Source of the DNA: Fictibacillus arsenicus
GTDB taxonomy: Bacteria > Bacillota > Bacilli > Bacillales > Fictibacillaceae
Length of the DNA: 64,000 nt
Assembly: GCF_001642935.1 (NCBI RefSeq)
Contig: NZ_CP016761.1
Coordinates: 744,001 to 808,000 of the forward strand
Direction of reading: 5' to 3'
Under the pieces are notes generated by a model. It saw only the letters and a program-made list of their open reading frames with translations. It had not been told where the DNA came from and did no database searches. Shown here in pieces: positions 2,130-51,864 of the stretch (position 1 is the first letter of the stretch; every line of letters starts with the position of its first letter). A program made the translations under genes and the position numbers.

Positions 2130-3641
2130 ATGAAGCGAATGAAACGAATCTGGGAATTCTTCCTTACTGTACTATTGCTTATCTGTTTATACATCGTGTT
2201 CTTTGCAGAAGGATATGTCATCATTAAAACGGTATTCGGGCTCCTGTATATTGCGGTGATTTTGTATACGATCTATTCGTTAATGCTGGAAAACAGAACC
2301 GCACAGCACACACTCTTATGGATTTACGTACTTATATTATTTCCTTTTATCGGATATATGTTTTATCTGTATTCAGGACAGCTTTATCTAAAAGGACATC
2401 TGTTCAAGTCTAAACGTAAAAATGATCGTGATGAATGGATCAGGGTTTCGAAACAAGATGAAAAGCCTGATTTCAGTGATTTGAAAAGACATCAGCAATG
2501 CTTTGCCACGCATGCGCATCACATCACATTAACAAAAATTAATCGTCATACCGGAACTAAGATACTGAAGAACGGGCAAGAAACTTTTCCCGAAATTATT
2601 AGAAGACTGCAAGAGGCGAAAGAGTACATACATATTCAATATTATATCTTTCGCTCTGACCGTCTCGGGAAGGATATCATCGATCTTTTAATCAAAAAAG
2701 CAAATGAGGGTGTTAAGGTAAGATTCCTATTTGATGGAGTAGGCAGTTTGTCGCTGCAGCAGTATGATATGGACCGTATGAAAAAAGCAGGAATTCTCGT
2801 AGAAGCCTTCCTGCCGGTAAGGTACGGATTTTTTAACCAGAAGCTAAACTTTAGAAATCACAGAAAAATTATCGTGATTGACGGCAAGGTTGGATTTGTT
2901 GGTGGTTTGAACGTTGGAGTTGAGTATTTAGGAGAAGACCCTGATATCGGATTTTGGCGCGATACTCACATGGTGATGGAAGGGGAAGCTGTCCAAGTTC
3001 TGCATGCGATATTCCTGTTGGACTGGGAATATGTATGTGGAGAAGATCTTCTGGAAGATTCCCATTTAACGGAAGCCTATCCTGCAGATGGGGATGGGGT
3101 CGTACATGTTGTTGCGAGTGGTCCAGATACCCAGTTGGGAATCATGAGTGATTTGTATTATTCATTGATCTCATGTGCGGAAAAATCAATTTGGATCGCC
3201 ACACCGTATTTTGTTCCGAATGAAGCTATTCGGACTGCATTAAGGGTAGCTGCAAAAAAAGGAGTACAGGTCCGATTGATGGTACCAGAAATCAATGATG
3301 GATTTTTAACTCAATATGCAACGCGTTCTTATTTCCCTGAGCTGCTCCGTTCAGGTATAGAGATCTATTCGTATCAAAAAGGGTTTTTGCATCAGAAAGT
3401 TATCATCATTGACGGAGATACTGCATCGATCGGAACAGCGAATATGGATATGAGAAGCTTCCATCTGAATTTCGAAGTAAACGTATTTTTGCTTAACACA
3501 AAGTCAGTTAACGACCTCGTTGAACAATATGAAGAAGACATAGAAGAATCAACAAAGGTCCGTCCTGTAGAATTTTATAAAAGAGGGTTATGGGAAAGGA
3601 CAAAAGAATCATTCGCCCGCCTTTTCTCTGGTGTTCTCTAA
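2130..3641 (+). CDS. cls: Cardiolipin synthase (phospholipase D family)
   Basis: 503 aa, the usual size. Two N-terminal membrane helices (about residues 8-30 and 35-65) are followed by two PLD/HKD half-sites: NHRKIIVIDG (H244, K246, D251) and LHQKVIIIDG (H421, K423, D428), each followed by a GxxN-type strand. The enzyme joins two phosphatidylglycerols into cardiolipin plus glycerol at the membrane. AAAGGAG lies 7 bp before the ATG. It is monocistronic: an array and palindrome lie upstream and a MITE-like element downstream. Which paralogue (ClsA or YwnE-like) cannot be settled from this window. Confidence 0.93.
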   Translation: MKRMKRIWEFFLTVLLLICLYIVFFAEGYVIIKTVFGLLYIAVILYTIYSLMLENRTAQHTLLWIYVLILFPFIGYMFYLYSGQLYLKGHLFKSKRKNDRDEWIRVSKQDEKPDFSDLKRHQQCFATHAHHITLTKINRHTGTKILKNGQETFPEIIRRLQEAKEYIHIQYYIFRSDRLGKDIIDLLIKKANEGVKVRFLFDGVGSLSLQQYDMDRMKKAGILVEAFLPVRYGFFNQKLNFRNHRKIIVIDGKVGFVGGLNVGVEYLGEDPDIGFWRDTHMVMEGEAVQVLHAIFLLDWEYVCGEDLLEDSHLTEAYPADGDGVVHVVASGPDTQLGIMSDLYYSLISCAEKSIWIATPYFVPNEAIRTALRVAAKKGVQVRLMVPEINDGFLTQYATRSYFPELLRSGIEIYSYQKGFLHQKVIIIDGDTASIGTANMDMRSFHLNFEVNVFLLNTKSVNDLVEQYEEDIEESTKVRPVEFYKRGLWERTKESFARLFSGVL

Positions 3642-4855: not shown

Positions 4856-5075
4856 ATTCAAAATTTAGCAGGCTTTAGATCGCTGAATTTACAGTCAATT
4901 TCTTTATTTTAAGAAGACTGTGAAACGGGGGAACCAATCTTTTGGGGTGAATTTTGCAAGCAGCAAAAAGGGATACTCCATTCCCTAATCCGACAGCTAA
5001 CCCCGTAAGCGTCATGTCACTGGAGAGGTCAAATTGGTGAAAAACCGGACCCGCTTTTTTGTGTGGTCTTTTTTT
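4856..5075 (+). ncRNA. c-di-AMP riboswitch (ydaO-yuaA leader) with expression platform
   Basis: Conserved blocks of the ydaO/yuaA class appear in order: GATCGCTGAATTTAC, an ACAGTC/GACTGT stem, ACGGGGGAACCA, TTGGGGTGAA, AAGGGATACTC, CCGACAGCTAACCCCGTAAG and GGAGAGG. A GGACC/GGTC hairpin ends in a long T-run near 5066-5075. In this class c-di-AMP binding switches off K+ uptake genes; yuaA is the old name of ktrA, so the placement is as expected. Confidence 0.92.
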
Positions 5076-47159: not shown

Positions 47160-47382
47160 ATCTTTTTTCGCAATCAATTACGCTAGTGGAAGTGGTTGAT
47201 TTCAGTTCCAGGATGCTCGCTTTCCTCGGGGTGTGCGGTGAGCCTCCTCGCGCTTTGCGCCTTTAGGAGTCTCACCTGTCCCACTGATCCCGAAGGAGTC
47301 TCGCACCTTGCACTCCAATCAACTAGTCAATGAAGCATACTCAAGAAAATGTTCAAAAGCAACAATCTTTTAGAAAAGAGCC
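47160..47382 (+). mobile_element. MITE-like element, copy 10
   Basis: Core 47195-47323, 129 bp. The right end TTTTAGAAAAGAGCC is the best-preserved terminal repeat. Flanks TTAATAAA and AAAATAAA match at 6 of 8. It lies between moxR and the second uppP, next to the uppP terminator. Confidence 0.85.
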
Positions 47383-49180: not shown

Positions 49181-49336
49181 TTAATTATCGTTCCTTTCAT
49201 CATTCCATTCATCAAGACGGTTTAATAACTGATCTAGTTCTTGACTGCATATAACTGTTTCCTTCGCTGTAAGCCCATATGTTTTTCCAAGACAAAGCAA
49301 GACTTCGCGTTTTTCTTCAATTAATTGTAGCAACAT
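49181..49336 (-). CDS. Spo0E-family aspartyl-phosphate phosphatase, 51 aa
   Basis: Too short for most gene finders. Sequence begins MLLQLIEEKREVLLCLGKTY and has the family signature SQELDQLLNRLDEW (SQxLD). Spo0E/YisI/YnzD proteins are helical hairpins that dephosphorylate Spo0A~P and delay sporulation. The ribosome binding site (GAAAG) is weak. It lies between the 3D-domain gene and the antiporter gene. Confidence 0.8.
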   Translation of the reverse strand: MLLQLIEEKREVLLCLGKTYGLTAKETVICSQELDQLLNRLDEWNDERNDN

Positions 49337-51126: not shown

Positions 51127-51152
51127 AAAATGGCCAAAAGGGGCCATTTTTT
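51125..51152. terminator. Bidirectional terminator
   Basis: AAAAAATGGCC and GGCCATTTTTT around AAAAGG. Shared by the antiporter gene and the converging Spo0E-like gene. Confidence 0.9.
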
Positions 51153-51318
51153 ATATGTTTTCTTGTCTTGAAAGAGTGAATTGATTGAGAAGCTGATCGA
51201 GCTGCTGACTGACTTTAACTATTTTTGGATGTGCCAGTTCATGGTTCAACTGGAGTGAAGTGCGATATAGTTCTTCTCTTAATAGGCTAATTCGGTCTTG
51301 AATCGTATGCTCCTTCAT
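51151..51318 (-). CDS. Spo0E-family aspartyl-phosphate phosphatase, 55 aa, riboswitch-controlled
   Basis: Begins MKEHTIQDRISLLREELYRT and has SQQLDQLLNQF, the Spo0E signature (SQxLD). Two-helix fold predicted. It would dephosphorylate Spo0A~P. AGGGAG lies 8-10 bp before the ATG. The leader carries a c-di-GMP-I riboswitch whose 3' strand includes CTCC, complementary to this ribosome binding site. Confidence 0.87.
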   Translation of the reverse strand: MKEHTIQDRISLLREELYRTSLQLNHELAHPKIVKVSQQLDQLLNQFTLSRQENI

Positions 51319-51344
51319 ATGTATATCTCCCTAGCAATTATTAC

Positions 51345-51444
51345 CGACGAAGGAGTTCATTCGGCACTGGCTGGCATATCTTTTTAAAGACTTAGCCCCT
51401 GTAGCTTTGCGTCCTTCCCTTTCGAAAAGTTTGCCCTTTCGTCG
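51345..51444 (-). ncRNA. c-di-GMP-I (GEMM) riboswitch upstream of the Spo0E-like gene
   Basis: On the minus strand: P1 CGACGAA pairs with TTCGTCG; inside it AGGGCAAAC, a TTTTCGAAAG hairpin, GGACGCAAAGC, ACAGGGGCTAAG, a variable stem, then ATGCCAGCCAGTGCCG. These are the diagnostic GEMM-I blocks in order. A likely -10 TATACT (51457-51462) puts the start a few bases upstream. GAACTCC at the 3' edge could pair with the AGGGAG of the gene, suggesting translational control; the direction is inferred only. Confidence 0.9.
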
Positions 51445-51577
51445 ATTGAATTCATAAGTATAGCATAATGACTCAACTTTTTTACAAATAATTACAAAAT
51501 AATACAACAGTAGAGTTTTTGGTCAGTGAAAACCATTCCTGTCACTAATGATATCGGATGTGATCCTAATAAGTTTA

Positions 51578-51864
51578 AGCTCATTTCTATAAGATTGTTG
51601 CTTTGCTTTTAAAGGTTTTTTGGAGGATGCTTCTTCGACTAGTTGATTGGAGCGGAAGGTGCGAGACTCCTCGAAAATGAAAATCAATTTTCTTCGTGCG
51701 ATGTAACGCTCTCGAAGCCTTCCTTGTCCTGCGGGAGCAGCGGGACAGGTGAGACCCTGGCAGGCTTGATTAGCCTAGGGGGCTCACCGCACGCCCCACG
51801 GAAAGCGAGCATCCTGGAGCGGATATCAACTACTTCCAATAGCAACAAAGTTGTTTTTTTGGTC
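51578..51864 (-). mobile_element. MITE-like element, copy 11 (with internal insert)
   Basis: Core 51642-51830, 189 bp, with an extra block of about 60 bp after GAGACTCCT and a replaced central loop (GGCAGGCTTGATTAGCCTAGGG region). Outer ends AGCTCATTTC and GTTTTTTTGGTC are diverged; no clear duplication. Confidence 0.75.

Follow-up and report, generated by a model that had tools for sequence, protein, structure and literature searches.

Can cyclic di-GMP (c-di-GMP), the messenger by which bacteria choose between swimming and settling, act directly on the decision to form a spore? The question is raised by a locus in a 64,000-nucleotide stretch of Fictibacillus arsenicus DNA (the window; positions 744,001 to 808,000 of contig NZ_CP016761.1), where a sequence-only reading had placed a c-di-GMP-I riboswitch on the minus strand, directly before a gene for a 55-residue protein of the Spo0E family, the two forming a single-gene unit. 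These assignments hold. A covariance search of the whole window (cmscan against Rfam) returned two matches, a riboswitch for cyclic di-AMP (c-di-AMP) and the c-di-GMP-I riboswitch in question, the latter at 75.8 bits against a gathering threshold of 35 for RF01051; the gene directly after it matches PF09388 at 42.9 bits against a cut-off of 23, and its ATG begins 42 nucleotides past the aptamer end. Because a terminator-like hairpin follows spo0E, between it and the convergent Na+/H+ exchanger gene, and the terminator scan listed none on the minus strand from aptamer to gene, spo0E is evidently the one gene that the riboswitch serves; on the latter result transcription attenuation is also rejected. 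We consider it probable, though by no means settled, that the leader is a translational ON switch, which would place a single Spo0E-family gene under the control of a c-di-GMP-I riboswitch.

The aptamer itself is a full-length representative of the GEMM-I class (RF01051), scoring far above the gathering threshold. Among the 18 Fictibacillus genomes searched, 16 hold an orthologue of this spo0E, and in five of these 16 loci (G000, G002, G006, G014 and G017) the aptamer is intact and ends 42-43 nucleotides before the ATG; the four other intact leaders score 78.5-86.4 bits, for a range of 75.8-86.4 over all five. The core segments, namely G at model position 11, GACGCAAAG and UGCCGAA, occur in each of the five intact leaders and none of them is found in the eroded leader of G007. 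We take them to carry the ligand-contact nucleotides G20, A47 and C92 of Vc2, names and mapping alike being assumed. By its family membership, the spo0E leader would be expected to bind c-di-GMP. The closing helix P1 lies outside the Rfam model RF01051. A helix of nine base pairs that may act as P1 is present, with its 3' strand beginning about 12 nucleotides past the commonest register. Compared with the usual GEMM-I riboswitch, the element differs in this shifted P1, in the roughly 12 extra nucleotides on the 3' side and in its Spo0E-like target. For 226 of the 244 loci an anchor could be set, and the commonest register there begins at the aptamer's last C; since it forms at least four pairs in just 47 of the 226 loci, P1 is variable within the sample, and it gives the best helix in 34.

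Evidence for a switch comes from the folding of the leader. In ligand-free folds of four of the five intact leaders, an anti-start strand, CUCCUUCGU, forms a helix of nine base pairs (-12.6 kcal/mol) with AUGAAGGAG, and the consensus fold of the five leaders contains the same helix. The mean probability that the AUG is unpaired in the free fold is 0.02 in G000, 0.12 in G002, 0.13 in G006 and 0.01 in G017, and 0.50 in G014; with P1 enforced it becomes 0.45, 0.77, 0.47 and 0.76 in the first four, and lies at 0.45-0.77 in all five. Duplexes as strong as the anti-start duplex arose in 1, 1, 0 and 5 of 1000 linker shuffles and in 12, 7, 6 and 4 of 1000 whole-leader shuffles (G000, G002, G006 and G017, respectively), while the P1 duplex was equalled in 2, 9, 24, 0 and 40 of 1000 shuffles (G000, G002, G014, G006 and G017). 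The two helices are mutually exclusive, UUCGU being common to the anti-start strand and the 3' strand of P1. The choice of codons is a further sign for the anti-start pairing: four intact leaders out of five and the two with least erosion have AAG GAG as codons 2 and 3, while the nine remaining leaders have GAA as codon 3 after AAA, ATA or AGA, AAG and GAG being rarer than their synonyms in five open reading frames of the window (AAG 58 vs AAA 122; GAG 64 vs GAA 142).

The proposed mechanism can be described as follows. Without ligand, CUCCUUCGU would pair with AUGAAGGAG and hide the start codon, the predicted sequestered element being thus the start codon and not the ribosome site. Binding of c-di-GMP would fold the aptamer, whereupon P1 (AUCGACGAA:UUCGUCGGU) would claim the UUCGU of the anti-start strand and leave the start codon free. 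High c-di-GMP, as in the settled state, would consequently give more Spo0E-like protein and less phosphorylated Spo0A (Spo0A~P), and sporulation would be held back. The aptamer, the gene, their conservation and the exclusive helices are results of computation; ligand binding, the ON direction and an effect on Spo0A~P are what we infer. The sequence-only reading had guessed that c-di-GMP raises expression, a direction that the predicted folding favours, and had looked for the contact between a CTCC before the 3' strand of P1 and the AGGGAG ribosome binding site. Both elements are present; as a switch contact, however, their duplex does not exceed chance, since across the five intact leaders 200-358 of 1000 shuffles reach its strength, and this pairing, rejected as the main contact, is probably the wrong mechanism. 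In G014 alone does the predicted fold pair CUCCU with the ribosome site in the manner previously suggested. The opposite polarity, an OFF switch, would have the ligand-bound fold hide the start codon or the ribosome site, so that c-di-GMP lowers Spo0E and favours sporulation or the matrix genes driven by Spo0A~P. It draws on the uncertainty of the bound state, given that P1 is non-canonical, and on a local hairpin, GAAUGAA-CUCC-UUCGUC, which from the sequence could form 3' of the aptamer; yet AUG accessibility rises upon enforcing P1 in every one of the five intact leaders, the pairing of linker and ribosome site is at chance level, and the leader lacks any listed minus-strand terminator. We regard an OFF switch as clearly unlikely.

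Several observations weigh against the ON switch with a brake on Spo0A~P. The aptamer of G014 is strong (82.9 bits), yet its anti-start helix is broken (-5.4 kcal/mol) by substitutions on both strands, with equally strong duplexes in 83 of 1000 shuffles of the linker and, for the whole leader, in 342 of 1000. The eroded leader of G007 retains the anti-start helix (4 of 1000 shuffles; probability of an unpaired AUG 0.01); lacking a working aptamer, it would keep its start hidden, which we cannot explain except by recent decay. Enforcing P2 alone leaves the start paired (probability of an unpaired AUG 0.05 in G000, 0.06 in G002, 0.01 in G017), so that freeing of the start depends wholly on P1. 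This helix in turn departs from the commonest register, with a 3' strand about 12 nucleotides further on, and without ligand it lies 2.2-8.8 kcal/mol above the free fold, a difference that ligand binding would need to cover. Because the pairing strands are almost invariant, covariation proves neither helix. Of the 16 orthologues, 11 lack an intact riboswitch and, because the genome has seven Spo0E-like genes, the target of this one is uncertain. Taken together, the evidence best supports an ON direction with a brake on Spo0A~P, a reading in which direction and target would follow from folding and family membership.

The erosion in relatives deserves separate consideration, for it bears on whether the riboswitch matters to the gene at all. 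G000 and G006 share 93% of their leader positions, compared to 73% for the coding DNA and 73% for the upstream DNA; a leader identity of 0.87 likewise stands against coding identities of 0.73 (G000-G017) and 0.72 (G006-G017), and closer pairs show little excess (G000-G002: leader 94%, coding DNA 90%, upstream DNA 87%). The eroded leaders have no such excess over coding DNA (G007, 86% vs 87%; G003, 71% vs 72%), and their Rfam remnants fall below the cut-off, at 29.1 bits in G007 and 24.3 bits in G003. A model built on the sequences of the five intact leaders takes in the ribosome site and the first codons, and its E-values (expectation values) are rough; it gave colinear matches at 10 of the 11 further orthologous loci, with E below 1e-4 at nine of them and 0.39 in G016, and no match in G011. 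In an alignment test without ribosome site and first codons, the nine loci were equalled by 0-1 of 500 shuffles, G016 by 12 and G011 by 386. Judged by these alignments, colinear eroded relics are present in nine of the 11 other orthologues, weak in G016 and absent in G011. A recent gain of the riboswitch in five genomes is rejected in view of the nine relics, the simplest reading being that the riboswitch was ancestral to these orthologues and decayed both in G007 and among the genomes grouped with G003. The riboswitch-spo0E arrangement thus looks ancestral and repeatedly lost. A tree built on the GGDEF protein linked to the riboswitch, with 17 of the 18 genomes (a filter having dropped G009), sets G007 and G003 apart, though only four of its 14 inner branches are well supported; the tree is by itself no proof of loss, and the label test was not informative.

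It could be argued that the aptamer binds c-di-GMP with little effect on the gene, being dispensable as its erosion in relatives would imply, and that the remaining copies are perhaps vanishing. The small share of orthologues with an intact aptamer (5/16), the scores below cut-off in G007 (29.1 bits; A for G) and G003 (24.3 bits) and the broken helix of G014 all fit such a view; it accords poorly with an intact set whose leaders are more conserved than the coding sequence (0.93 vs 0.73, G000-G006) and whose five aptamers score 75.8-86.4 bits, and we consider it very doubtful. The eroded relatives provide built-in controls for the riboswitch-spo0E link and, if the paired ON switches proposed below are real, the repeated loss of the spo0E arm within one genus constitutes a natural experiment on the wiring. 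In G007, A replaces G just before the first aptamer pair (model position 11), and other core segments are altered too. This position presumably bears on the preference for c-di-GMP or cyclic GMP-AMP (cGAMP) in this riboswitch class; the A in G007 (locus L046) is readable as a shift towards cGAMP, though other core segments have changed.

Regarding the protein, the affinity with the Spo0E aspartyl-phosphate phosphatases (PF09388; 2c0s, 2bzb) consists in the family match, an SQxLD motif and a two-helix model. The motif, S37-Q-Q-L-D41, is invariant in all 16 orthologues, and SxxxD is stated as the Spo0E signature in a passage of PMC11115286; no Spo0E model of NCBIfam was matched by the 55-residue protein. 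The ratio of nonsynonymous to synonymous differences (pN/pS) is 0.02-0.05 in three pairs of the closest riboswitch-bearing genomes and 0.10-0.21 in five wider pairs, by which measure the protein is under purifying selection. AlphaFold2 models two helices, 6-28 and 31-53, with a mean predicted local distance difference test score (pLDDT) of 75.5 and a predicted template modelling score (pTM) of 0.39; 2c0s ranks first in Foldseek, not significantly (E 0.87), and profile comparison matches the protein to PDB entries 2c0s (E 0.00039) and 2bzb (E 0.033). Family membership suggests that the protein would dephosphorylate Spo0A~P. A working switch, ON or OFF, could be coupled to a protein that serves another response regulator or motility, and there are reasons to consider it: the seven Spo0E-like genes of the genome, a sigma-D-like site upstream in 14 of the 16 orthologues, and passages of PMC11115286, by which Spo0E of C. 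difficile represses SigD-dependent traits as well, without the involvement of Spo0A, and Spo0E-like proteins may have diverse functions. The first fold match, 2c0s, is titled as a protein aspartic acid phosphate phosphatase and speaks, at its non-significant E of 0.87, for the Spo0A~P target. We judge another target rather unlikely. The sigma-D-like site was identified using what we take to be the SigD consensus; the strict pattern occurs three times in the window, with 0.26 expected.

How special is the spo0E target? In the downstream regions of 244 c-di-GMP-I loci, a Spo0E gene directly follows the riboswitch at 5 of 92 loci of the genus versus 0 of 152 others, using a Spo0E profile that derives from proteins of the genus and could overlook distant Spo0E. 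The 152 outside loci comprise 41 of 42 from the family (one below threshold omitted), 51 at the order/class level (29 of 30 class loci, L109 being omitted, plus 22 further) and 60 class loci, a non-random sample taken from the best-scoring 150 listed. A widespread GEMM-spo0E pairing is rejected on the 0 of 152 loci sampled outside the genus. Applying the Pfam model to the 26 genomes of the order that have a riboswitch match, not one of 95 riboswitches is found in the 3 kb upstream of any of 87 Spo0E genes on the same strand; a single riboswitch/Spo0E pair in G377 is 813 nucleotides apart on opposite strands. The riboswitch-spo0E pair is real and conserved in one lineage, with a new target for an ordinary class.

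The genome (4.06 Mb, one contig) contains seven c-di-GMP-I riboswitches, seven Spo0E-like genes and seven GGDEF domains, together with one Spo0A above the curated cut-off and one FliA-type sigma factor above cut-off. All 18 genomes of the genus have c-di-GMP-I riboswitches, 92 altogether, and in each of them one stands directly before a SinI-like gene, as detected by a SinI profile built here with 17 of the 18 genus proteins as seeds and with a Pfam check in G000 only. A SinR-like gene lies behind the SinI-like gene in 16 of the 18, as selected by a filter. In G000 the riboswitch (L003; G000:C1:3654259-3654343, plus strand) is followed by a 47-residue SinI-like gene (PF08671) and a SinR-like gene. 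The riboswitch-SinI arrangement recurs in 10 of 12 other family genomes having c-di-GMP-I riboswitches; of the 51 loci at the order/class level, 5 show it, and of the 60 class loci none does. In free folds of 15 of the 18 sinI leaders (not G001, G002 and G006), the ribosome site is paired to the 5' strand of P1 with a probability of at least 0.77, so that P1 formation would free the site, again an ON response; the duplex alone exceeds chance only modestly, as 10-143 of 500 shuffles made of the 5' strand equal it. This suggests that the sinI leaders of the genus would follow the same ON logic. We tentatively propose, with a little less than an even chance of being right, that Fictibacillus reads c-di-GMP twice, through paired translational ON riboswitches on sinI (a SinR antagonist; matrix on) and on spo0E (Spo0A~P off; sporulation held back). 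If true, the messenger of the settled state would directly pick matrix over spores. A further riboswitch (L001; G000:C1:1542287-1542376, plus strand) precedes a GGDEF-type protein in 18 of 18 genomes by sequence pattern, the Pfam check again being limited to G000; feedback on c-di-GMP synthesis is possible.

Known systems provide partial parallels. A putative c-di-GMP riboswitch upstream of sinI is described for Bacillus methanolicus MGA3 (PMC4342826), which likewise joins this ligand class to a gene of the sporulation/biofilm decision; the relevant passages of that paper concern SinI, the SinR antagonist, and do not mention Spo0E, whereas the target here is of the Spo0E family. The GEMM-sinI pairing is already in print as a putative element, and the GEMM-spo0E target is new: no paper on a c-di-GMP riboswitch before a Spo0E gene was found in the open-access literature searched, a scope that places most subscription journals and all bioRxiv preprints outside; PMC12471899, PMC11115286 and PMC12189002, in the passages at hand, make no such link either. 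In C. difficile, c-di-GMP inhibits early sporulation by a pathway which PMC8653836, in the passages at hand, calls unidentified, and the paper states that no riboswitch of this species seems to act on sporulation genes, though under conditions not supporting efficient sporulation; high c-di-GMP holding back sporulation is the phenotype predicted here. Signals acting on Spo0E are called unknown in a passage of PMC12471899. Distinct from the known Spo0E family, control is here predicted at the RNA level. The riboswitch-spo0E pair offers a concrete link, in an environmental genus, between the restraint of sporulation by c-di-GMP and the Spo0E input; if the proposal is true, the swim-or-settle signal is wired straight to the spore decision. 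We know of no earlier case in which a second messenger acts directly on a Spo0A phosphatase, as it would here.

Coordinates of the features are collected in Table 1. The consensus scan did not list the extended -10 element at 51457-51465.

Table 1. Elements of the riboswitch-spo0E locus, in window positions
Feature	Position	Strand	Basis
Sigma-D-like site, TAAA-N16-CCGATAT	51551..51577	-	Relaxed pattern upstream in 14/16 orthologues
Extended -10 element, TGCTATACT, just 5' of the aptamer	51457..51465	-	TGnTATACT at -145 to -148 in 5/5 intact leaders
c-di-GMP-I (GEMM-I) riboswitch aptamer	51360..51445	-	RF01051, 75.8 bits (gathering 35), E 4.3e-13, model 1-87 (full length)
5' strand of proposed P1 helix, AUCGACGAA	51438..51446	-	9-bp complement of 51343-51351; UCGACGAA same in 5/5 intact leaders
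3' strand of proposed P1 helix, UUCGUCGGU	51343..51351	-	Register unlike the commonest among 226 GEMM-I loci
Anti-start strand, CUCCUUCGU	51347..51355	-	Overlaps P1 3' strand at 51347-51351; pairs with AUGAAGGAG in free fold
Start codon and codons 2-3, AUGAAGGAG, target of the anti-start strand	51310..51318	-	Free folds, shuffle tests, consensus fold
Ribosome binding site, AGGGAG	51327..51332	-	Read from sequence; invariant across 5 intact leaders
55-residue Spo0E-like gene, ATG start	51151..51318	-	PF09388, 42.9 bits (cut-off 23), E 4.8e-11
Terminator-like hairpin 3' of the spo0E stop codon	51124..51153	-	12-pair stem; T tails on both strands

Some further elements were noted in passing. A second Spo0E-like gene (49181-49336, minus strand; 51 residues; 54.7 bits to PF09388) is found about 2 kb away, beyond the Na+/H+ exchanger gene; its distance downstream of the riboswitch in G006 (locus L021) is about 740 nucleotides. 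The c-di-AMP (ydaO/yuaA) riboswitch is located at 4871-5027 of the window on the plus strand (87.6 bits). There are two additional c-di-GMP-I riboswitches: L004 (G000:C1:2905372-2905456, minus strand) precedes a 61-residue membrane-like peptide that matches nothing in Pfam, an arrangement that by sequence pattern occurs in 16 of 18 genomes, and behind L005 (G000:C1:3723501-3723586, plus strand) there are only a very short open reading frame and a hairpin with a run of T, without an evident gene for it to serve. Similar translations (SGTGET, with HRTPRGKR or SPHAPRK) occur at about 51690-51840 and at 47196-47333 of the window and at 2217-2423 (minus strand) of L004; these stretches are apparently a dispersed genome repeat, one copy of which lies just upstream of the riboswitch locus.
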